Positions 332 to 11,029 of a DNA stretch of 51,843 nucleotides are shown piece by piece. The DNA lies in contig JAUNRX010000005.1 in NCBI GenBank assembly GCA_030539495.1, forward strand, positions 1-51,843. Reading direction: 5' to 3'. The translations under genes were made by a program, and so were the position numbers. This DNA comes from a bacterium (GTDB lineage Bacteria; Bacillota; Clostridia; Lachnospirales; Lachnospiraceae). Numbering within the stretch: the first letter of the stretch is position 1; each line of letters begins with the position of its first letter. The notes under the pieces are model-generated. The model was not told the origin of the DNA. It saw nothing but the letters and a program-made list of their open reading frames with translations, and made no database searches.

Positions 332-553
332 ATGCTAATAAGTTTAAATTCTGTAGACAAAGTAAAGAGCTTTGTGAATAAGATTTCCAAGTTTGATGAG
401 GAAATCGATTTAGTATCCGGAAGATACGTTGTAGATGCCAAATCACTGCTCGGTATATTCAGTTTAGATTTAAGTAAGCCAATTGAACTTGAAACAAAGG
501 GCATCACAAAAAGCAAAGAGCTAGAAGATATGCTCAAAGACTACTGCATCTAG
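332..553 (+). CDS. HPr-like protein without the phosphorylatable histidine
   Basis: This 73-residue protein follows the strong Shine-Dalgarno AAGGAAGGGGG. Residues 26-52 (SGRYVVDAKSLLGIFSLDLS at 29-48) match the second half of the PTS phosphocarrier HPr, including the position of regulatory Ser46 (here Ser38). The first half lacks the GIHARPA-type active-site loop, so His15 is missing and it cannot carry phosphate from enzyme I in the usual way. No terminator separates it from pstS 66 bp downstream, so it is the first gene of the Pho-box-driven operon. A structural or regulatory role linking carbon status to phosphate uptake is possible but is inference. Confidence 0.75.
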   Translation: MLISLNSVDKVKSFVNKISKFDEEIDLVSGRYVVDAKSLLGIFSLDLSKPIELETKGITKSKELEDMLKDYCI

Positions 554-619: not shown

Positions 620-1504
620 ATGAAATTAAGAAGATTTGTAGCATTAGCATTAACAGTTTCCTGTGTAGCAGGAAGTTTAGTAGCATGTGGGGGAAAAGAT
701 AAAGCAGCAGGATGGGACTCATCAAAAACAATCAATGTAGCATCCAGAGAAGAAGGATCAGGAACAAGAGGTGCTTTCGTAGAGTTATTTGGAATTGAAG
801 AGAAAGATGCTTCAGGAAATAAAGTAGATCATACAAAGGACAGTGCACTAGTAACAAACTCAACATCCGTTATGATGCAGACAGTAGCAGGCGATGATTA
901 TGGACTTGGATATATTTCACTAGGTTCTTTAAATGATACAGTGAAAGCAGTAAAGATTGATGGTGCAGAAGCAACTGTAGATAATATCAAGAATAATAAA
1001 TATGCGATTGCAAGACCATTTAATATTGCAACAAAAGAAAAAATCAGTGAAGCAGCACAGGATTTTGTAAACTACATTATGAGTACAGAAGGTCAGAAAG
1101 TAATTTCAGACAACAAATATATTTCCGTATCAGAAGGTGAAGCATTCAAGAGTACAAATCCAACAGGTAAAGTCGTAGTTGCCGGATCTTCTTCTGTAAC
1201 ACCAGTAATGGAAAAATTAAAAGAAGCATATGAAGCAGTAAACGCAGGTGTAAAAGTTGAAATTCAAGAAAGTGATTCTACAACTGGTATGAAATCTGCA
1301 ATTGACGGAATCTGTGATATCGGTATGGCTTCTAGAGAATTAAAAGACAGTGAATTATCCGCTGGCATTAAAGGAACAAAGATTGCAATGGATGGTATCG
1401 CAGTAATCGTAAATAAAAACAGCACAGTAGATAACTTAACAAAAGATCAAGTAAAGAGCATCTACATCGGAGAAACGACTTCTTGGTCAGATATCGTAAA
1501 ATAA
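620..1504 (+). CDS. pstS: Phosphate-binding lipoprotein PstS, circularly permuted
   Basis: Substrate-binding component of the high-affinity phosphate ABC importer, 294 residues, with a lipoprotein signal ending LVAC (lipidated Cys23), so anchored outside the membrane. The two halves are swapped compared with ordinary PstS. Residues 38-170 hold what is normally the second half (SREEGSGTRGAF, GYISLGSL, YIMSTEGQKVI). Residues 185-294 hold what is normally the first half (VAGSSSVTPVMEKL, CDIGMASRELKDSE, DGIAVIVNKNSTVDNLT), and the protein ends at TTSWSDIVK. In standard PstS the W-x-D/E-I segment leads directly into the R-x-x-GSGT segment, so the present N and C termini sit at a natural cut. No residues seem to be missing. 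The start has the Shine-Dalgarno AGAGGA. Confidence 0.93.
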   Translation: MKLRRFVALALTVSCVAGSLVACGGKDKAAGWDSSKTINVASREEGSGTRGAFVELFGIEEKDASGNKVDHTKDSALVTNSTSVMMQTVAGDDYGLGYISLGSLNDTVKAVKIDGAEATVDNIKNNKYAIARPFNIATKEKISEAAQDFVNYIMSTEGQKVISDNKYISVSEGEAFKSTNPTGKVVVAGSSSVTPVMEKLKEAYEAVNAGVKVEIQESDSTTGMKSAIDGICDIGMASRELKDSELSAGIKGTKIAMDGIAVIVNKNSTVDNLTKDQVKSIYIGETTSWSDIVK

Positions 1505-1528: not shown

Positions 1529-2380
1529 ATGCGCAAATATAAGGAAAGTTTAATGAAGTATGTATTCCTGCTTGCTGCTTGTATCTCCATCCTGGCTGTA
1601 GTGTTAATCTGTTACTTCCTTTTCGTAAATGGTATACCAGCCATAAAGGAAATCGGAGTAACAGATTTCATTTTCGGCAAGGTTTGGAAACCAAGCTTAA
1701 ATAAATATGGAATCTTGCCAATGATCTTAGGAAGCATCTATGTAACTGCTGGAGCAATTATAGTCGGTGTGCCAATCGGAATTTTAATGGCTGTATTTAT
1801 GGCAAAGTATTGCCCTAAAAAATTATATCGATTTATTAAGCCGGCAGTAGACTTGCTTGCAGGCATTCCCTCTATCGTTTATGGTTTCTTTGGCCTTGTC
1901 GTTATGGTTCCATTTATTCGTGAGAATGTTGGTGGGCAAGGATATAGTATGTTAACTGCATCACTGTTACTTGGAATTATGATCCTGCCAACCATTATTG
2001 GTGTCAGTGAAGCTGCAATTCGTGCGGTACCTGATAGTTATTATGAAGGGGCTTTGGCACTTGGTGCAACTCATGAGAGAAGTATTTTTAAAACTGTATT
2101 ACCAGCAGCAAAGTCAGGTATCTTTGCCGCAGTCGTATTAGGTGTTGGCCGTGCAGTTGGTGAAACAATGGCAGTCATTATGATTGCTGGTAACCAGCCA
2201 ATCATGCCAAAGAGCATTTATGAAGGTGTACGTACCTTAACTTCCAATATCGTTATGGAAATGGGCTATGCCACAGATTTACACCGAGAAGCATTGATTG
2301 CAACCGGTGTTGTGTTATTCGTATTTATTTTAATTATTAATATTTCATTTTCACTAATAAAGAGGAGAGGAGAAAAGTAA
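1529..2380 (+). CDS. pstC: Phosphate ABC transporter permease PstC
   Basis: Membrane subunit (283 residues, about six transmembrane helices) forming the phosphate channel with PstA. The first helix is at about residues 10-32. The cytoplasmic EAA loop that contacts PstB is visible as EGALALGATHERSIFKTVLP, followed by the conserved GVGRAVGETMAV. It lies 24 bp after pstS, and its TAA stop overlaps the pstA ATG by one base (TAATG), indicating translational coupling. Confidence 0.95.
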   Translation: MRKYKESLMKYVFLLAACISILAVVLICYFLFVNGIPAIKEIGVTDFIFGKVWKPSLNKYGILPMILGSIYVTAGAIIVGVPIGILMAVFMAKYCPKKLYRFIKPAVDLLAGIPSIVYGFFGLVVMVPFIRENVGGQGYSMLTASLLLGIMILPTIIGVSEAAIRAVPDSYYEGALALGATHERSIFKTVLPAAKSGIFAAVVLGVGRAVGETMAVIMIAGNQPIMPKSIYEGVRTLTSNIVMEMGYATDLHREALIATGVVLFVFILIINISFSLIKRRGEK

Positions 2381-3246
2381 TGATCAACAAAGCAACGATA
2401 AAACAAAAACTTAATGTATACAAAAAGCATCCACTATCTCTCCTTATGTGTTTGTTAGTATTAGTATCTGCAATCATTACGATTTCAGTACTTGGATTTT
2501 TAATCGTATATATCTTGGTGCATGGGATTCCTTATCTTAATTTGGACTTATTTGCTTGGAAATATACATCTACAAATGCATCTATGATGCCGGCAATTAT
2601 CAATACTTTGATTATGACAGTACTTTCCTTAATTATTTCAGTACCACTAGGTATTTTCTCAGCAATTTATCTGGTTGAGTATGCAAAAAAGGGAAATAAG
2701 CTGGTTAGTATTATTCGTTTAACAACAGAAACATTAGCTGGTATTCCTTCTATTATCTATGGACTATTCGGTATGATCTTCTTTGTAACGACATTAAAAT
2801 GGGGGTACTCCATTATGGCAGGCGCATTTACCTTGGCTATCATGGTACTTCCAACCATAATAAGAACGACAGAAGAGGCATTAATTTCCGTACCAGACTC
2901 TTATCGTGAAGGAAGTTATGGTTTAGGAGCTGGAAAGTTAAGAACAATATTTAGAATCGTACTTCCAAGTGCAGTACCAGGTATTGCATCAGGAATTATT
3001 CTGGCAATCGGAAGAATCGTTGGCGAAACAGCTGCCCTTATTTATACGGCAGGAACAGCAACAGAAGCAACAGGCAATTTATTTGGTTCAGGTAGAACAT
3101 TATCTGTTCATATGTACAGTCTTTCAAGAGAAGGGATCCATGTAAATCAAGCATATGCAACAGCAGTAGTATTATTACTTCTTGTTATGGCAATTAATAC
3201 AGTATCAAGTTTGATTGCAAAAAGTATTACAAAGAATAGGCAGTAG
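2380..3246 (+). CDS. pstA: Phosphate ABC transporter permease PstA
   Basis: Second permease of the phosphate importer, 288 residues with about six membrane helices. Its EAA-type loop reads EGSYGLGAGKLRTIFRIVLP and is followed by AIGRIVGETAAL, the PstA counterpart of the PstC motif. The start codon overlaps the pstC stop; the Shine-Dalgarno GAGGAGAGG is inside pstC. pstB follows after 14 bp. Typical length for the family. Confidence 0.95.
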   Translation: MINKATIKQKLNVYKKHPLSLLMCLLVLVSAIITISVLGFLIVYILVHGIPYLNLDLFAWKYTSTNASMMPAIINTLIMTVLSLIISVPLGIFSAIYLVEYAKKGNKLVSIIRLTTETLAGIPSIIYGLFGMIFFVTTLKWGYSIMAGAFTLAIMVLPTIIRTTEEALISVPDSYREGSYGLGAGKLRTIFRIVLPSAVPGIASGIILAIGRIVGETAALIYTAGTATEATGNLFGSGRTLSVHMYSLSREGIHVNQAYATAVVLLLLVMAINTVSSLIAKSITKNRQ

Positions 3247-3260
3247 AGGTGTGAGAGACG

Positions 3261-4013
3261 ATGAAAGAAAAAATAACAGTACGCGATCTTGATTTATACT
3301 ATGGAGACTTTAAAGCTCTTAAGGGAATCAATATGGATATCTATAAAAATGAAATTACAGCATTTATCGGACCATCTGGGTGCGGTAAGAGTACCTTCTT
3401 AAAATCTTTAAACAGAATGAATGATTTAGTAGAAGGATGTAGAATTACAGGAGAAGTAAAATTAGATGGGGAAGATATTTACGGAGATATCGATGTAAAT
3501 AGTTTAAGAAAACGAGTAGGAATGGTATTTCAGAAACCAAATCCATTTCCTATGAGTGTATATGATAATGTTGCATTTGGACCAAGAACCCATGGAATCC
3601 ACTCAAAACAAAAGTTAGATGAGATCGTAGAACAATCCCTACGTGATGCAGCAATCTGGGATGAATTAAAAGACCGCTTAAAGAAAAGTGCATTAGGCCT
3701 TTCCGGTGGACAGCAACAAAGATTATGTATAGCAAGAGCATTGGCAGTAAAGCCAGAAGTTATTCTTATGGATGAGCCTACAAGTGCCCTTGATCCAATC
3801 TCAACAACAAAGATTGAAGATCTTGTAATTGAGTTAAAGAAGAAATATACCATTGTCATGGTTACTCATAATATGCAGCAAGCAACTAGAATTTCTGATA
3901 AGACTGCCTTTTTCTTATTAGGTGAAGTAGTAGAATATGATAAGACAGACCGATTATTCTCCATGCCAAGTGATAAGAGAACAGAAGATTATATTACAGG
4001 ACGTTTCGGTTGA
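3261..4013 (+). CDS. pstB: Phosphate ABC transporter ATPase PstB
   Basis: Cytoplasmic ATPase that powers the PstCA channel, 250 residues. All motifs are intact: Walker [11 protein letters not shown]-loop [14 protein letters not shown], signature LSGGQQQRL, Walker [14 protein letters not shown] and the H-loop [10 protein letters not shown]. The characteristic PstB segment with NPFPMS identifies the family. It sits between pstA and phoU in the normal operon order with the Shine-Dalgarno GAGGTG. Confidence 0.97.
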
Positions 4014-4059: not shown

Positions 4060-4707
4060 ATGCGTAATAGATTTGATCAACAGTTAGTAGAACTAAATAA
4101 CGAATTGATTGAAATGGGAAGCCTGATTGAGCAGGCAATAGAAATGGCCGTTGGAGCATTAGTAAAACAAGATGTAGAACGGGCAAATAAGGCAATTGAA
4201 TTTGATGAGAACATTGACCGTCAGGAGAAGACAATAGAGAGCCTTTGTCTTAAGCTATTATTACAACAGCAGCCGGTTGCAAAGGATTTACGATTAGTTT
4301 CTTCCGCATTGAAGATGATTACAGACATGGAGCGCATTGGTGATCATGCAGCAGATATTTCAGAAATCACAATCTTGCTTGCAGGTGCTCCTTATATTAA
4401 AAAGCTAGAACATATTCAGACGATGGCAAAAGAAACAACGCTAATGGTAGTAAACAGCATTGATGCTTTTGTAAATAAGGATGTGAAGCTTGCAGAGGAA
4501 GTCATTAAACGAGATGATGTAGTAGATGCACTCTTTTCGAAAGTAAAGCAGGAGCTGATTGATCTGATCGCAGCAAATGCAAAGAACGGAGAGCAGGCAG
4601 CAGACTTACTTATGATTGCGAAATACTTTGAACGTATCGGTGATCATGCAACCAATATTGCAGAATGGGTGATTTTTTCTATTACAGGCCATCATTATGC
4701 AGAATAA
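4060..4707 (+). CDS. phoU: Phosphate signalling protein PhoU
   Basis: PhoU (215 residues) is a helical metal-binding protein that links the Pst transporter to the PhoR kinase and dampens Pho signalling when phosphate is plentiful. Two three-helix repeats are visible, each with the diagnostic metal-binding motif: ERIGDHAADISEI in the first half and ERIGDHATNIAEW in the second. It is the last gene of the pst operon; a hairpin follows its stop codon. A second PhoU-like module is fused to the Na/Pi transporter downstream. Confidence 0.95.
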   Translation: MRNRFDQQLVELNNELIEMGSLIEQAIEMAVGALVKQDVERANKAIEFDENIDRQEKTIESLCLKLLLQQQPVAKDLRLVSSALKMITDMERIGDHAADISEITILLAGAPYIKKLEHIQTMAKETTLMVVNSIDAFVNKDVKLAEEVIKRDDVVDALFSKVKQELIDLIAANAKNGEQAADLLMIAKYFERIGDHATNIAEWVIFSITGHHYAE

Positions 4708-4783: not shown

Positions 4784-4837
4784 TTTACATAGATTTTACA
4801 TAAGGTACTTTTATATTTTACACCCCCCCTATATAAT
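4784..4837 (+). promoter_or_regulatory. Pho box and promoter of the Na/Pi transporter-phoBR operon
   Basis: Hexamers at exact 11-bp steps: TTTACA 4784, TTTACA 4795, TACTTT 4806 and TTTACA 4817. A perfect -10 TATAAT at 4832-4837 begins 9 bp after the last hexamer across a run of C. This is the clearest of the three Pho boxes here. Because phoB and phoR are in the operon it drives, autoregulation is likely. Confidence 0.85.
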
Positions 4838-4903
4838 CCAACTTATTAAAGTAAAAATAATATGAAATCTATATACAATTCTGGTATAGGTTGGAGGTTA
4901 AGA

Positions 4904-6667
4904 ATGGATATTTTTAGTATATTAACGATGTTAGGTGGACTAGCTCTATTTTTATATGGTATGCATATTATGGGCGAAGGCTTATCTAAAGTTTCAGGGG
5001 GGAAACTTGAGGCAATTTTAGAGAAACTTACATCAAACCCAATTAAGGCAGTATTATTGGGTGCAGGGGTTACAGCAGTAATCCAGTCATCATCGGCAAC
5101 AACAGTTATGGTTGTTGGTTTTGTAAACTCGGGAATTATGAAATTAACACAGGCAGTAGGAATTATTATGGGTGCCAATATTGGTACGACAGCTACTTCC
5201 TGGATTTTAAGTTTAACAGGTATTGAAAGCGGCAATTTCCTAATTAAAATGTGTAAACCGACATCATTTTCACCGATTTTAGCATTATTAGGCGTTTGCT
5301 TTATTTTATTTAGCAAGAAAGAAAAGAAAAAAGATGTTGGTATGATCATGGTTGGTTTCGCAATCCTTATGACAGGTATGTCCTCTATGAGTGATGCAGT
5401 AAAACCACTTGCAGATGTTCCAGCATTTACGAATATTTTAATTATGTTCTCAAATCCTATTCTTGGTGTAATCGCAGGTACGGTATTGACAGCAGTAATT
5501 CAAAGTTCTTCCGCATCTGTAGGTATTCTTCAGGCACTTTGTGCAACAGGATCCTTAACTTATGCAACAGCGTTCCCAATTATCATGGGACAAAACATTG
5601 GTACTTGTGTAACAGCTATGATCTCAGGTATCGGCGCGAAAAAAAATGCGAAACGTGCAGCATTAGTTCATTTATACTTTAATATGATTGGTACAATCGT
5701 ATTTATGGGGCTTTTCTATGCAATTAATGCATTTGTATCCTTTGGATTTTTAGGTGATGTTGCAAATGCAGCAGGTATCGCAGTAATCCACAGTGTATTT
5801 AATGTAACCGCTACTCTTCTTTTATTACCATTTGGTAAAGGACTTGTTAAATTAGCATGTCTTACTGTAAAAGATGATGAATTAGAAGAAGAAGAAAATT
5901 TATTCGAAAAATTAGATGATCGTTTTCTTGATAAACCAGGTTTCGCAATGCAACAATGTAGAGAATTAACTAGAAATATGGCAGAAACAGCAAAAAAAGG
6001 ATTATATCTTTCTTTTGACTTATTAAAAGAGTATGATAGTGTAAAGGCTGAAAAAGTATATGAGATCGAAACTTTAGTAGATCAATATGAAGATCAGATT
6101 GGATCTTATTTAGTAAAATTAAGTAGCAAGAACATGTCCGAAGAGGATAGTAAAGAGTTAACAGTGTTGCTTCACTGCATTGGTGACTTCGAACGTATTT
6201 CAGACCATGCTGTAAACTTAATGCAGGCAGCAACAGAAATGAATGAAAAAGGACTTGTATTCTCAGAAGAGGCAGTTGCAGAAGTTGAGATTTATATGAA
6301 TGCAATGCGTGAAATTGTAGATAATGCATTTAAGGCATTTGAAGAAAATGATTTAGCATTAGCGGAATCCATTGAACCATTAGAAGAAGTAATTGACGGG
6401 TTAAATGTGAAATTAAAGAAACGTCATGTAATACGTTTACGTGATGGAAAATGTACGATTGAATTAGGATTTGTTTTAGCAGATATTACGACAAACTTTG
6501 AACGTGTAGCAGATCACTGCTCTAACTTAGCAGTTTCTATGCTTCAAATCGATAAAGATGGTTTTGATACTCATGAGTATCTTGATACACTAAAACGTGA
6601 AAATAATCCAGAGTTTATTCGTCGTTATGAAGAATATAAAGAGAAGTATAGATTACCAAAAAAATAA
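4904..6667 (+). CDS. Na/phosphate cotransporter family protein with C-terminal PhoU-like domain
   Basis: Sodium-coupled phosphate transporter of the NptA/PNaS family, about 587 residues. The N-terminal membrane half contains the two inverted repeats of the family, each with a QSSSA motif (VIQSSSATTVMV and VIQSSSASVGIL). The C-terminal 220 residues form a PhoU-like helical domain (ERISDHAVNL, ERVADHCSNL). An ATG at 4862 is in frame but lies only about 18 nt after the predicted transcription start and has no ribosome binding site; ATG 4904 follows GGAGG and begins with the usual MDIFSILTMLGGLALFLYG. Pho-box promoter upstream; phoB starts 27 bp downstream. Confidence 0.92.
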   Translation: MDIFSILTMLGGLALFLYGMHIMGEGLSKVSGGKLEAILEKLTSNPIKAVLLGAGVTAVIQSSSATTVMVVGFVNSGIMKLTQAVGIIMGANIGTTATSWILSLTGIESGNFLIKMCKPTSFSPILALLGVCFILFSKKEKKKDVGMIMVGFAILMTGMSSMSDAVKPLADVPAFTNILIMFSNPILGVIAGTVLTAVIQSSSASVGILQALCATGSLTYATAFPIIMGQNIGTCVTAMISGIGAKKNAKRAALVHLYFNMIGTIVFMGLFYAINAFVSFGFLGDVANAAGIAVIHSVFNVTATLLLLPFGKGLVKLACLTVKDDELEEEENLFEKLDDRFLDKPGFAMQQCRELTRNMAETAKKGLYLSFDLLKEYDSVKAEKVYEIETLVDQYEDQIGSYLVKLSSKNMSEEDSKELTVLLHCIGDFERISDHAVNLMQAATEMNEKGLVFSEEAVAEVEIYMNAMREIVDNAFKAFEENDLALAESIEPLEEVIDGLNVKLKKRHVIRLRDGKCTIELGFVLADITTNFERVADHCSNLAVSMLQIDKDGFDTHEYLDTLKRENNPEFIRRYEEYKEKYRLPKK

Positions 6668-6694
6668 TTATTGACAAAATCAGGAGGAAGAAGC

Positions 6695-7366
6695 ATGGCA
6701 TTAGTGTACATTGTTGAAGATGATAAGAATATAAGTGAAATAGAAAGTTTTGCACTTAAGAATTCAGGGCATACAACGATGGAATTTGGTTCAGCAAAAG
6801 AATTTCATAAACAAATGATGGACCGTATCCCAGATCTGATCTTATTGGATGTCATGCTTCCTGATGAAGATGGACTCAGTATTTTAAAGAGACTTAGAAG
6901 TGTTACCGAGACAAGAAAGATTCCTGTTATTATGGTAACGGCCAAAACAACAGAGCTTGATAAGGTAAAGGGCTTAGATATTGGAGCAGATGATTACCTA
7001 ACAAAGCCATTTGGCGTTATGGAGCTAATCTCAAGAGTAAAGGCATTGCTTCGAAGAGCAAGTGGAATGGAAGAAGAGAAGTTCTTAACTCTTGCCAATG
7101 TCTTTATTGATGGGGAAAAGCATGCCGTTTATGTAGATGATGAGCAAATCGAGCTTACGTACAAAGAATATGAACTTCTAAAACTATTGATTCAGAACCA
7201 AGGCATTGTGATGCAGCGTGATATCATTATGGAACGTATCTGGGGCATGGATTACGAAGGGGAATCAAGAACATTGGATGTCCACATTAAGACGCTTAGA
7301 CAAAAACTTGGTGAGACAGGCAGCCGTATTAAGACAGTTCGAAATGTAGGATATATAATGGAATAG
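6695..7366 (+). CDS. phoB: Phosphate response regulator PhoB/PhoP (OmpR family)
   Basis: Two-component response regulator, 223 residues from ATG 6695, which has the Shine-Dalgarno AGGAGGA; an in-frame TTG at 6671 lacks one. The receiver domain (1-120) has the acidic pair EDD near the N terminus, phosphoacceptor Asp52 in LILLDVMLP, the switch Thr in VTAK and the Lys in LTKPF. The C-terminal winged helix has ESRTLDVHIKTLRQKLG and ends VRNVGYIME. It is followed 8 bp later by its kinase. The phosphate role rests on the pst/Na-Pi neighbours and the three Pho boxes. Confidence 0.9.
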   Translation: MALVYIVEDDKNISEIESFALKNSGHTTMEFGSAKEFHKQMMDRIPDLILLDVMLPDEDGLSILKRLRSVTETRKIPVIMVTAKTTELDKVKGLDIGADDYLTKPFGVMELISRVKALLRRASGMEEEKFLTLANVFIDGEKHAVYVDDEQIELTYKEYELLKLLIQNQGIVMQRDIIMERIWGMDYEGESRTLDVHIKTLRQKLGETGSRIKTVRNVGYIME

Positions 7367-7374
7367 GTGACCTA

Positions 7375-8712
7375 ATGAAGAAGAAAATAAATTTTAGATT
7401 TTTAGCAGTGGTAGCGGTTGCGATTATTATTACCGTAACTATGTCTACGATTGTATTTTATGAGTTATTTAAAAAAGAAGTTATGCAGGATTTAAAGACA
7501 TATGTCAGGGTTTTAGTAACTGCGGATATCTATGATGAGTTTAAAACCTATGATTTTAATGAGAATCTGGATGAGCTTCGAGTAACCATTATTAGTCAGG
7601 ATGGAATTGTAGAGTTTGATACCAATGTAGATATTGGAGGTCTCGATAACCACAGTGGCCGTCCTGAGGTAGTAGAAGCATTTAAAACTGGTGAAGGACA
7701 AGCAATCAGAGAGTCTAAGACATTAGAGAAAAATGCATTTTACTATGCGGTCCTCTTAAAGAATGGTTCTGTACTTCGTGTAGCAAAAGAGGCGGGAAGT
7801 ATCCTTAGTGTATTCTTCAGTGCCTTACCTATGATTGGAGTAACTAGTCTCCTATTGTTTATCATATGTGCAGTGTTATCGCATTTCCTAACTAAAAGTC
7901 TGGTGCTTCCAATTGAGCATTTGGCAAATAATCTAGATGAAGGAAATACGACGATCGTGTATAAGGAGTTAGTTCCTTTTATTACAACGATAAAAAAACA
8001 GCATGCGGATATTATAAGGAATGCAAGCTTAAGACAGGAATTTACTGCAAATGTCTCTCATGAGCTTAAGACACCATTAACAGCAATTTCGGGATACTCG
8101 GAATTAATTGAAAATGGAATGGCAACGGAAGAAGATGTAACCCGTTTTGCAGCGGAAATCCATCGTAACTCCAAGCGCCTGCTTAGCTTGATTAATGACA
8201 TTATTCGTTTATCAGAGCTTGATCACATTGAACGAGAAGTAAACTATGAAAAGACGAATCTCTATAGTATAGCAGGCAGTTGCGTACAGATGCTTCAAAT
8301 GAATGCAAAAAAACATCATGTAACGATAGAGTTTCATGGAGAGCTTGCATATGTTACAGCAAACAAAGAGATGATGGAAGAATTAATTTATAATCTTTGT
8401 GATAATGCAATTCGCTATAATAATGAAAATGGTCGTGTAGATGTTTTCGTAAATCCAGTTTCTACAAATGGTGCAAATTATGTGGAACTAGTCGTTAAGG
8501 ATACTGGAATAGGAATCTCAAAAGAAAATCAAGAAAGAATTTTTGAACGTTTTTACCGTGTAGATAAGAGCCGATCTAAATCTACAGGTGGTACCGGACT
8601 TGGTCTTGCCATAGTAAAGCATATTGTTGCGAGACATGAAAATGCTCACCTAGAATTAAACAGTGAGGTTGGAAAAGGAACCATGATCCGCGTAACATTT
8701 CAAGAGATATAA
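7375..8712 (+). CDS. phoR: Phosphate sensor histidine kinase PhoR
   Basis: Membrane histidine kinase, 445 residues. It has a transmembrane helix at about 9-30, an extracytoplasmic sensor segment at 31-140, a second helix at about 145-170, and a dimerisation/phosphotransfer domain with phosphoacceptor His229 (ANVSHELKTPLTAISGYSEL). The ATPase domain has the N box NLCDNAIRYNN, G1 DTGIGIS, F box ERFYRVDKSRS and G2 GGTGLGLAIVKHI. Probably phosphorylates the regulator encoded just upstream. A strong terminator follows. Confidence 0.9.
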   Translation: MKKKINFRFLAVVAVAIIITVTMSTIVFYELFKKEVMQDLKTYVRVLVTADIYDEFKTYDFNENLDELRVTIISQDGIVEFDTNVDIGGLDNHSGRPEVVEAFKTGEGQAIRESKTLEKNAFYYAVLLKNGSVLRVAKEAGSILSVFFSALPMIGVTSLLLFIICAVLSHFLTKSLVLPIEHLANNLDEGNTTIVYKELVPFITTIKKQHADIIRNASLRQEFTANVSHELKTPLTAISGYSELIENGMATEEDVTRFAAEIHRNSKRLLSLINDIIRLSELDHIEREVNYEKTNLYSIAGSCVQMLQMNAKKHHVTIEFHGELAYVTANKEMMEELIYNLCDNAIRYNNENGRVDVFVNPVSTNGANYVELVVKDTGIGISKENQERIFERFYRVDKSRSKSTGGTGLGLAIVKHIVARHENAHLELNSEVGKGTMIRVTFQEI

Positions 8713-8814: not shown

Positions 8815-8879
8815 TTTATATACATTTTAGTTACGTTTTACATAACCGTAGTATGAATTTTATGTTACCATGTTATCGT
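8815..8879 (+). promoter_or_regulatory. Third Pho box, before a small membrane-protein gene
   Basis: Hexamers at exact 11-bp steps: TTTATA 8815, TTTAGT 8826, TTTACA 8837, GTAGTA 8848 and TTTATG 8859. A -10-like TATCGT at 8874-8879 begins 9 bp after the last one, the same geometry as the two stronger Pho boxes. Individual hexamers are weaker. Confidence 0.6.
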
Positions 8880-9245: not shown

Positions 9246-10976
9246 TTAGCTATCTTCTCCCTGCAGGGCATCATAGCCTTCTTCTCCGGTTCTTACTTTA
9301 ATTACATTTTCAACATCGTATACGAAAATCTTACCATCACCAATGTTGCCAGTATATAATGCTTTCTTGGCTGTTTCAATAACCTGGCTGACAGGAACTT
9401 TGCTTACGACGACATCGACTTTCACTTTTGGAAGAACAACGATATCAACTGCAACACCACGATAGTATTTTGTAGCACCTTTCTGAACACCACATCCAAG
9501 GACTTGAGTAACGGTAATACCCATAACTCCGATATCATTTAAAGCTTCTTTTAATTCGTCAAACTTATTCTGCTTACAGATAATAGAAATCTTGGTAAGT
9601 TTGATATCACTTGCAGGAGCAGAACCGCTAACGATCTGAACAGGCACAGAAGCATCAACAGATGTCTTTTTATCACTGCCCTCAGAGGAACTTCCTAATG
9701 AAGAAGCTAGTTGATTTGGAACTTGTAAGAAGTCAGCATAAGAGGATGGAAGGTTATGTTCTGTACTATCAAGACCAAGAATTTCTTCCTCACGGCTTAC
9801 ACGTAAACCAATCGTATGCTTAATCACTTCAAAGATAATAATCATGGTAATGGCAACCCAAGCCATAACAGAGATTACACCAAGAGCCTGGATCCCAAGA
9901 AGCTTAACTCCACCACCAGTAAATAAACCTTTCCAGTCAGTTCCTGTACCGTCAGAGAATAGACCAACGGCAATCGTACCAAATAGACCATTTAATCCAT
10001 GGACGCCAACTGCACCAACAGGATCATCCACCTTTAATACCTTATCGATAAACTCAATACCAAATACAACTACAAAACCTGAGATAATACCAATGATTGC
10101 AGCACTTAATGGACTTACCGTATCACATCCGGCAGTAATTGCTACAAGGCCGGCAAGAGAACCATTTAATGTCATAGAGACATCTGGTTTCTTATAACGG
10201 AACCAAGTGATAATCATAACAGTACAGGTTGCGACAGCAGCTGCAAGGTTGGTTGTTACGAAAATTTTAGAAGCACTTTGAATTGCAGCGTCGTCACCCA
10301 TGGAAACAGTAGATCCACCATTAAAACCAAACCAACAGAACCAAAGGATAAATACGCCAAGGGCACCAAGCGTCAAGCTGTGTCCAGGAATAGCGTGAAC
10401 CTTACCATTCTTACCATATTTTCCAATACGGGGACCAAGGATGATAGCACCGATAAATGCAGCAATACCACCTACCATATGTACAGCACAGGAACCGGCA
10501 AAATCATGGAAGCCCATTTCTGAAAGCCAGCCGCCGCCCCAGATCCAGTGACCTGAAACAGGATATACAATCAAACTAATTAATAAACTGTAGATACAAT
10601 ACGAAATAAATTTTGTTCGTTCAGCCATTGCACCGGAAACGATGGTAGCTGCAGTAGCACAAAAGACAGTCTGGAAAATCAAAAATGCAAAGAATGGAAC
10701 TCCATCCGGAAGCATTCCATTTCCATAGTTTGTTTCGGAAGCAATGCCACTGATTGAACCAATAAAATCATTGCTGCCTCCAAACATAATGCCAAATCCA
10801 ACAAGCCAGAAGATTGGAGTTCCGATTGAGAAATCCATTAAGTTTTTCATAATGATGTTACCGGCATTTTTTGCTCTTGTGAAACCGGTTTCGACCATTG
10901 CAAACCCAGCTTGCATAAAGAATACTAAAGCAGTTGCTAAAAGTACCCATATTGTGTTTTCTGCGGAAAATGTCAT
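9246..10976 (-). CDS. amt: Ammonium channel Amt fused to a PII (GlnB/GlnK) domain
   Basis: A 576-residue fusion. Residues 1-about 410 are an Amt/MEP/Rh channel with about 11 helices; the twin pore histidines are in CAVHMVGG and GVHGLNG. After a Ser-rich linker (LASSLGSSSEGSDKK) comes a complete PII signalling domain of about 110 residues, with a T-loop GCGVQKGATKYYRGVAVD that keeps the Tyr corresponding to Tyr51, then VLPKVKVDVVV and the GDGKIFVYDV end. PII proteins normally bind Amt to block it when nitrogen is plentiful, so the fusion probably builds the gate into the channel. The start at 10976 follows GGGAGG; an in-frame upstream ATG at 11027 lacks a good site. Confidence 0.93.
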   Translation of the reverse strand: MTFSAENTIWVLLATALVFFMQAGFAMVETGFTRAKNAGNIIMKNLMDFSIGTPIFWLVGFGIMFGGSNDFIGSISGIASETNYGNGMLPDGVPFFAFLIFQTVFCATAATIVSGAMAERTKFISYCIYSLLISLIVYPVSGHWIWGGGWLSEMGFHDFAGSCAVHMVGGIAAFIGAIILGPRIGKYGKNGKVHAIPGHSLTLGALGVFILWFCWFGFNGGSTVSMGDDAAIQSASKIFVTTNLAAAVATCTVMIITWFRYKKPDVSMTLNGSLAGLVAITAGCDTVSPLSAAIIGIISGFVVVFGIEFIDKVLKVDDPVGAVGVHGLNGLFGTIAVGLFSDGTGTDWKGLFTGGGVKLLGIQALGVISVMAWVAITMIIIFEVIKHTIGLRVSREEEILGLDSTEHNLPSSYADFLQVPNQLASSLGSSSEGSDKKTSVDASVPVQIVSGSAPASDIKLTKISIICKQNKFDELKEALNDIGVMGITVTQVLGCGVQKGATKYYRGVAVDIVVLPKVKVDVVVSKVPVSQVIETAKKALYTGNIGDGKIFVYDVENVIKVRTGEEGYDALQGEDS

Positions 10977-11004
10977 AAATATACCTCCCTTTTTTATTGC
11001 AAAA

Positions 11005-11021
11005 GTAAGTAGAGTACTTAC
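11005..11021. promoter_or_regulatory. Perfect palindrome in the amt leader
   Basis: GTAAGTA-GAG-TACTTAC, a perfect 7-bp inverted repeat with a 3-bp centre, lies 29 bp upstream of the amt start and downstream of the leader terminator. It could be an operator or a short RNA hairpin; no regulator is known to me for it. Confidence 0.4.
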
Positions 11022-11029
11022 CTGCATAA

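Follow-up and report, generated by a model that had tools for sequence, protein, structure and literature searches.

PstS, which binds phosphate for the PstSCAB importer, is a textbook protein that serves as a model of the venus-flytrap type of binding protein. In canonical PstS, as represented by the models TIGR02136 and PF12849 and by the solved chains 4q8r, 4gd5, and 4exl, the half that starts the chain (the N half) precedes the half that ends it (the C half), and in the canonical proteins inspected the two are joined by a segment of 5 to 6 residues, mostly GG-x-D. Outside the PstS family, Tp0684 (TpMglB-2) is a circularly permuted glucose-binding lipoprotein, for which its authors put forward a "type Ic" class and raise the possibility of a connection with membrane anchoring (PMC4990184). 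As for PstS itself, no title among the literature matches listed names a permutation, most subscription papers and the permutation databases lying outside that search. The pneumococcal Pst1 and Pst2 systems are called evolutionarily distinct, with Pst2 treated as a functional transporter, in a paper whose accessible portion makes no mention of chain order (PMC4913102).

We analyzed a stretch of 51,843 nucleotides (here, the window) from contig JAUNRX010000005.1 of a Lachnospiraceae draft assembly (GCA_030539495.1), in which a pstS gene at positions 620 to 1504 had been proposed, in a preliminary description, to encode a circularly permuted protein with the C half first and the N half last. The alignments bear out this order, and the open reading frame (ORF) very probably encodes a working, membrane-tethered phosphate-binding protein of a PstSCAB importer with a circularly permuted chain. 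The window protein shares with canonical PstS both halves, the mapped phosphate contacts, a lipoprotein-like signal, and the pst operon, whereas its halves stand in the opposite order and its two termini sit where canonical PstS has the GG-x-D-type joint. It differs from TpMglB-2, a sugar-binding type I protein with another ligand, and the two permutations would be separate events. The permuted order is already present in a solved structure, PDB entry 4h1x, a PstS 2 of 265 residues that we take to be from Streptococcus pneumoniae; it seems not to have been described in the literature searched, where no paper citing that entry code was found. What appears to be new here is the apparent single lineage of both halves, the distinct PstC lineage that goes with it, the rare co-occurrence of canonical and close permuted forms, a fused N-C-N-C protein, and a cotransporter-linked clade of permuted proteins.

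Chain order and phosphate site

The gene and its parts are as follows.

620 to 1504, + strand: pstS, predicted circularly permuted phosphate-binding lipoprotein (ATG start, TAA stop, 294 amino acids)
677 to 688, + strand: lipobox L-V-A-C, residues 20 to 23, membrane anchor (read from the translation)
722 to 1129, + strand: half that ends canonical PstS, residues ~35 to 170, carrying R43, G48, and T49 (profile and structure alignments)
1130 to 1165, + strand: new linker, residues 171 to 182, from the old C terminus to the old N terminus (comparison of permuted proteins)
1166 to 1495, + strand: half that starts canonical PstS, residues 183 to 292, carrying S192, S220, and S238 (profile and structure alignments)

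The profiles and the solved canonical chain 4q8r matched this protein in two pieces. PF12849 (PBP_like_2) scored 108.5 bits against a cut-off of 27 in two stretches, and in a search of the organism's own genome the downstream part of the gene matched profile positions 8 to 125 and the upstream part positions 123 to 267. TIGR02136 (PstS) also matched in two stretches, with 182.4 bits against a cut-off of 206.6, a shortfall that the swapped order would explain. In the solved canonical PstS 4q8r, chain residues 3 to 113 correspond to query residues 182 to 292 and chain residues 119 to 245 to query residues 37 to 170, so the standard order is indeed different. No sugar-binding type I family was found among the profile matches of the ORF, the best of which were the PBP_like_2 and PstS models, and a defence library gave no match.

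The solved PstS 2, in contrast, aligned in a single collinear piece (query 33 to 292 on chain 6 to 264 of 4h1x; 194 bits, E value of 2.9e-56), with 41% identity (107 of 258 aligned positions); it was among 12 solved sequences matched by the single-protein search. When a profile of 35 permuted sequences was used, 26 distinct solved sequences matched, and only 4h1x did so in one piece and at nearly full length (profile 31 to 292 on chain 4 to 264). With that profile, matches to chains of the 1ixh type, presumably E. coli PstS, began at chain position 7 and fell in the second half of the window protein.

Across 135 distinct permuted proteins (150 ORFs at 146 loci), the linker between the halves has a median length of 12 residues (range, 11 to 19), and a loose lipobox pattern occurs in 129, the window protein counted. 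The earlier view that both halves are complete and the lipoprotein signal intact is thus backed by sequence, operon context, conservation, and the collinear match to 4h1x.

In PhoX of Xanthomonas citri, phosphate is contacted by S34, S62, D80, R159, G164, T165, and N201; domain I comprises residues 26 to 100, 252 to 265, and 277 to 340, and domain II comprises residues 101 to 251 (PMC5439949). By spacing, the first six contacts map to S192, S220, S238, R43, G48, and T49 of the window protein, with N201 left unmapped. These six positions are invariant in all 35 proteins of an alignment of the window protein with 34 of 80 relative loci. They also agree throughout the PstS tree described below, in its permuted (49), canonical (46), and tandem (4) rows, except that two permuted rows have T in place of S192. 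The permuted protein would bind phosphate and supply PstCAB, and it would retain the PstS fold and venus-flytrap action.

The cut, just before R43 (PhoX R159), probably lies inside domain II. Domain I, which in the canonical chain is assembled from both ends, would then be formed by a single uninterrupted segment; domain II, which is uninterrupted in the canonical chain, would instead be built from both ends. The termini and the lipid anchor would accordingly be found on domain II rather than domain I, with no change expected in the two lobes or in the phosphate site. Of the suggestion that the permutation alters where both hinge and termini face the PstCA channel, the shift of the termini is probable, as judged from the PhoX domain limits, whereas the hinge need not move.

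The pst operon and its genome

The permuted pstS is the first gene of a pstSCAB-phoU operon, after which come genes for a cotransporter and for PhoB-like and PhoR/PnpS-like proteins.

1529 to 2380, + strand: pstC, permease (TIGR02138, 307.8 bits, over cut-off)
2380 to 3246, + strand: pstA, permease (TIGR00974, 283.5 bits, over cut-off)
3261 to 4013, + strand: pstB, ATPase (TIGR00972, 425.5 bits, over cut-off)
4060 to 4707, + strand: phoU (TIGR02135, 217.3 bits, over cut-off)
4862 to 6667, + strand: Na/Pi cotransporter with a C-terminal PhoU domain (PF02690 and PF01895, on 4907 to 6664)
6671 to 7366, + strand: PhoB-like response regulator (best NCBIfam model TIGR02154, PhoB, below cut-off, on 6689 to 7363)
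7375 to 8712, + strand: PhoR/PnpS-like histidine kinase (best NCBIfam model NF046044, PnpS, below cut-off)

The draft genome comprises 3.96 Mb in 257 contigs and is 91% complete. No second PstS was found in it with PF12849, the sole further match scoring 21.1 bits, under the cut-off, and a canonical PstS query gave nothing at an E value of 1e-25 (7 of 52 first-look candidates scored). Since neither search returned another PstS, the permuted protein is apparently the only one of this organism, as far as a genome of that completeness can tell.

Several other features were observed around the operon. Just 5' of pstS, positions 332 to 553 (+ strand) encode a 73-residue HPr-like protein (PF00381, 23.6 bits), which by sequence is without the active-site His region and retains the Ser46-like region; we take it to resemble Crh. 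This gene was considered as a part of the system and set aside: among the 150 permuted ORFs, it lies upstream only in three copies of the window itself. Short terminator-like inverted repeats are found upstream of it, at 171 to 187. TTTACAT-like repeats with 11-base spacing, perhaps PhoB boxes, occur on the + strand before the pst operon (237 to 265), before the Na/Pi cotransporter gene (4784 to 4801, an exact match), and after the phoR-like gene (8815 to 8843); over the whole window, the pattern is not above chance (28 observed versus 24). Farther downstream, positions 9246 to 11027 (− strand) encode an ammonium transporter fused to a P-II regulator domain (PF00909 and PF00543).

Spread, trees, and a likely route to the permuted order

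A search for the same order in relatives, as the preliminary description had suggested, found it to be common. We used a same-family sample of 299 genomes and a phylum sample of 398, with the organism's own genome in both and 6 to 8 candidates scored per genome. The close permuted type, defined by a full-length collinear match, is present in at least 79 of the 299 same-family genomes, and close and divergent collinear matches together occur in at least 88 (from hand-copied handles). In the phylum sample, permuted matches occur in at least 14 genomes from 11 coded families, by hand count. Two genomes stand outside these counts, one with the halves on two contigs (G275) and one with a broken divergent copy (G183). 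In public genomes, 559 stretches encode a relative, and titles among the best 80 of 559 include Lachnospiraceae, Oscillospiraceae, Cellulosilyticum, Anaerotignum, Acetivibrio, and Caldicoprobacter, with a few Selenomonadales and Erysipelotrichales. The permuted PstS is not a local oddity: relatives commonly have it, the PstS 2 of 4h1x has the same order, and the permutation is apparently old and widespread.

Canonical PstS-like proteins were found with a canonical query in 101 same-family genomes (107 minus 6 in which only parts of permuted proteins matched; G045, included in the 101, has just an end fragment). Both canonical and close permuted forms were detected in only 2 of the 299 genomes (G093 and G232), and therefore the two forms seem to replace each other; 119 genomes gave neither a canonical nor a close or divergent permuted match at the thresholds used. 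A pstC gene starts within 900 nucleotides downstream of 128 of the 150 permuted ORFs. At one locus (L158:4876-6794, − strand), two permuted pstS genes stand in tandem before a single set of pstC, pstA, and pstB.

The trees are most simply read as one event from one source gene. The PstS tree is unrooted and has 99 rows and 236 columns, with permuted rows thinned at 72% identity. In a tree of the C half alone, the permuted label changes once, and in a tree of the N half it changes twice, or once when three long-branch rows are dropped; shuffled labels gave means of 32 to 33 for these half trees. We take the canonical order as the older because both the PF12849 model and the other solved PstS chains have it. 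In a PstC tree of 72 rows, 71 of them different (33 permuted, 37 canonical, and 2 tandem), the 33 permuted operons lie on one side of one branch with support of 93, indicating that the permuted PstS and its own PstC have been inherited together. This pattern fits coevolution and could also be plain shared descent.

Of the 201 ORFs with both halves, 150 have the order C-N, 47 have N-C, and 4 have N-C-N-C (135, 45, and 2 distinct sequences, respectively); the ratio of C-N to N-C carries no meaning, since loci were picked by likeness to the window protein. The N-C-N-C form is a fused double PstS, a single lipoprotein present in at least 2 of the 398 phylum-sample genomes (G606 and G649, which share one genus code), with open frames of 544 and 531 residues.

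L184:3350-4981, − strand: fused double PstS, two complete canonical copies, beside pstCAB-phoU
L183:3632-5224, − strand: fused double PstS, two complete canonical copies, beside pstCAB-phoU

The copies within each fused protein are 73% and 74% identical, and in the tree first copies pair with first and second with second (support of 85 and 94), so the duplication seems to predate the divergence of the two genomes. The middle C-N segment of these proteins has the window order and matches the window protein collinearly, whereas the fused proteins keep both full copies and fall among the canonical rows of the tree. The permuted form therefore does not descend from them directly, but they show that such an intermediate can be made and kept.

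The most likely origin, we infer, is duplication and trimming. One in-frame tandem duplication of pstS would give N-C-N-C, and removal of the N half at the front and of the C half at the end would leave signal-C-N, the order of the window protein. The permutation would have arisen early in the history of one Pst operon type and then been inherited with its own permease. The other whole-half intermediates, C-N-C and N-C-N, were not found among the 201 ORFs. A duplication scar, namely a Trp before the first half repeating the final W-S-D-I, was sought and discarded, with only 18 of the 135 distinct permuted proteins having a Trp within 25 residues before that half. Two long frames taken as candidate fusions (574 and 584 amino acids, in G619 and G439) were likewise dropped, as their loci carry plain N-C proteins. 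In another genome of the same family, a canonical pstS (G196, L233:1999-3399, − strand) contains an internal segment of ~100 residues that is repeated in tandem and in frame. The repeat extends across the cut site, from the last part of the N half into the first part of the C half, and its two copies read identically; either a recent duplication or an error of assembly may account for it.

A divergent permuted clade with support of 100 comprises twelve rows of the PstS tree. An NptA-like Na/Pi cotransporter gene adjoins 9 of these 12 loci on the same strand, mostly in place of pstC, lying downstream at L143, L145, L146, L148, L150, L151, and L155 and upstream at L154 and L156; the cotransporters at L143 and L150 were scanned, and both have PF02690 and a PhoU domain. 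Outside the tree, a downstream cotransporter gene also occurs in G710 (L205), in G746 (L208), and beside the broken copy in G183 (L162). At L152:953-3932 (− strand), the gene immediately after the divergent permuted one encodes polyphosphate kinase and has the same orientation, and no cotransporter neighbor was seen at L149 or L157. Among 15 same-family genomes with divergent collinear matches, 13 also have a canonical (7) or close permuted (6) PstS. No title among the literature matches listed concerns a joint NptA-PstS operon. It is possible, and on balance doubtful, that the permutation marks an ancient separate importer lineage with its anchor on the other lobe and a coevolved permease, one branch of which left the ABC importer for an Na/Pi cotransporter.

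Alternative explanations and wider meaning

Several observations weigh against a working permuted PstS of single origin. The intactness of the fold leans on homology to 4h1x at 41% identity, and the match crosses one stop codon in 4 of the 79 same-family genomes (G227, G150, G146, and G051). The contact Asp of PhoX is Ser in the window protein; it is Ser in permuted, canonical, and tandem proteins alike, so this difference was not caused by the permutation. The seventh contact, Asn201, lies outside the mapped set. No pstC is found within 900 nucleotides of 22 of the 150 permuted ORFs, some having it farther on and others lying beside a cotransporter gene. The tandem proteins fall inside the canonical clade, and in the free quick tree the permuted label changes twice (shuffled mean, 33), with long branches at L128, L144, and L153.

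This last result is what would favor several independent permutations, in the close PstS-like group, in the PstS 2 of 4h1x, and in the divergent cotransporter-linked group, as the free tree leaves the three unjoined and places 4h1x apart from the close group of the window protein. A single permuted clade, on the other hand, is not rejected by the AU test (P value = 0.864), and the constrained tree is better by 36.6 log units, meaning that the free search had missed it; the half trees fall to one change without the three long rows, and the cut lies at the same place, before R-x-x-(G/S)-S-G-T, in the proteins inspected. We therefore regard multiple origins as unlikely. Genomes with two PstS-like genes exist, and the C half of one gene could in principle have been fused to the N half of another; the N-half and C-half trees show nearly the same split of permuted from canonical proteins, as expected from one source, which makes such a fusion quite improbable.

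The remaining alternatives concern function. The protein might bind another oxyanion or act mainly as a sensor rather than as the supplier of PstCAB, as the cotransporter genes and the one polyphosphate kinase gene beside divergent relatives could suggest. It is nevertheless the only PstS found in the draft genome, it heads pstCAB-phoU followed by PhoB- and PhoR-like genes, and it keeps the mapped contact positions, leaving this reading highly improbable. There is next to no chance that the gene is a scrambled, nonfunctional product of sequencing, assembly, or rearrangement damage. The assembly is indeed a draft of 257 contigs, but the same order recurs in many independent assemblies with conserved motifs and linker length, mostly adjoining pstC, and is present in single-contig assemblies (e.g., G265 and G035) and in the solved homologue 4h1x. 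The earlier judgment in favor of permutation over damage thus agrees with the pstSCAB-phoU context, the conserved contacts, and the recurrence in relatives.

Because the window protein falls short of the cut-off of the NCBIfam PstS model, proteins of this kind may be underannotated. If the scenario of a separate importer lineage is true, the cotransporter-linked branch would represent a binding-protein-assisted secondary phosphate transporter or a sensor. Because the double N-C-N-C protein exists in present-day genomes, the duplication route to permutation can be tested, and the natural permutant would allow the effects of chain order and anchor position on folding, tethering, and docking to be compared directly on the same importer.
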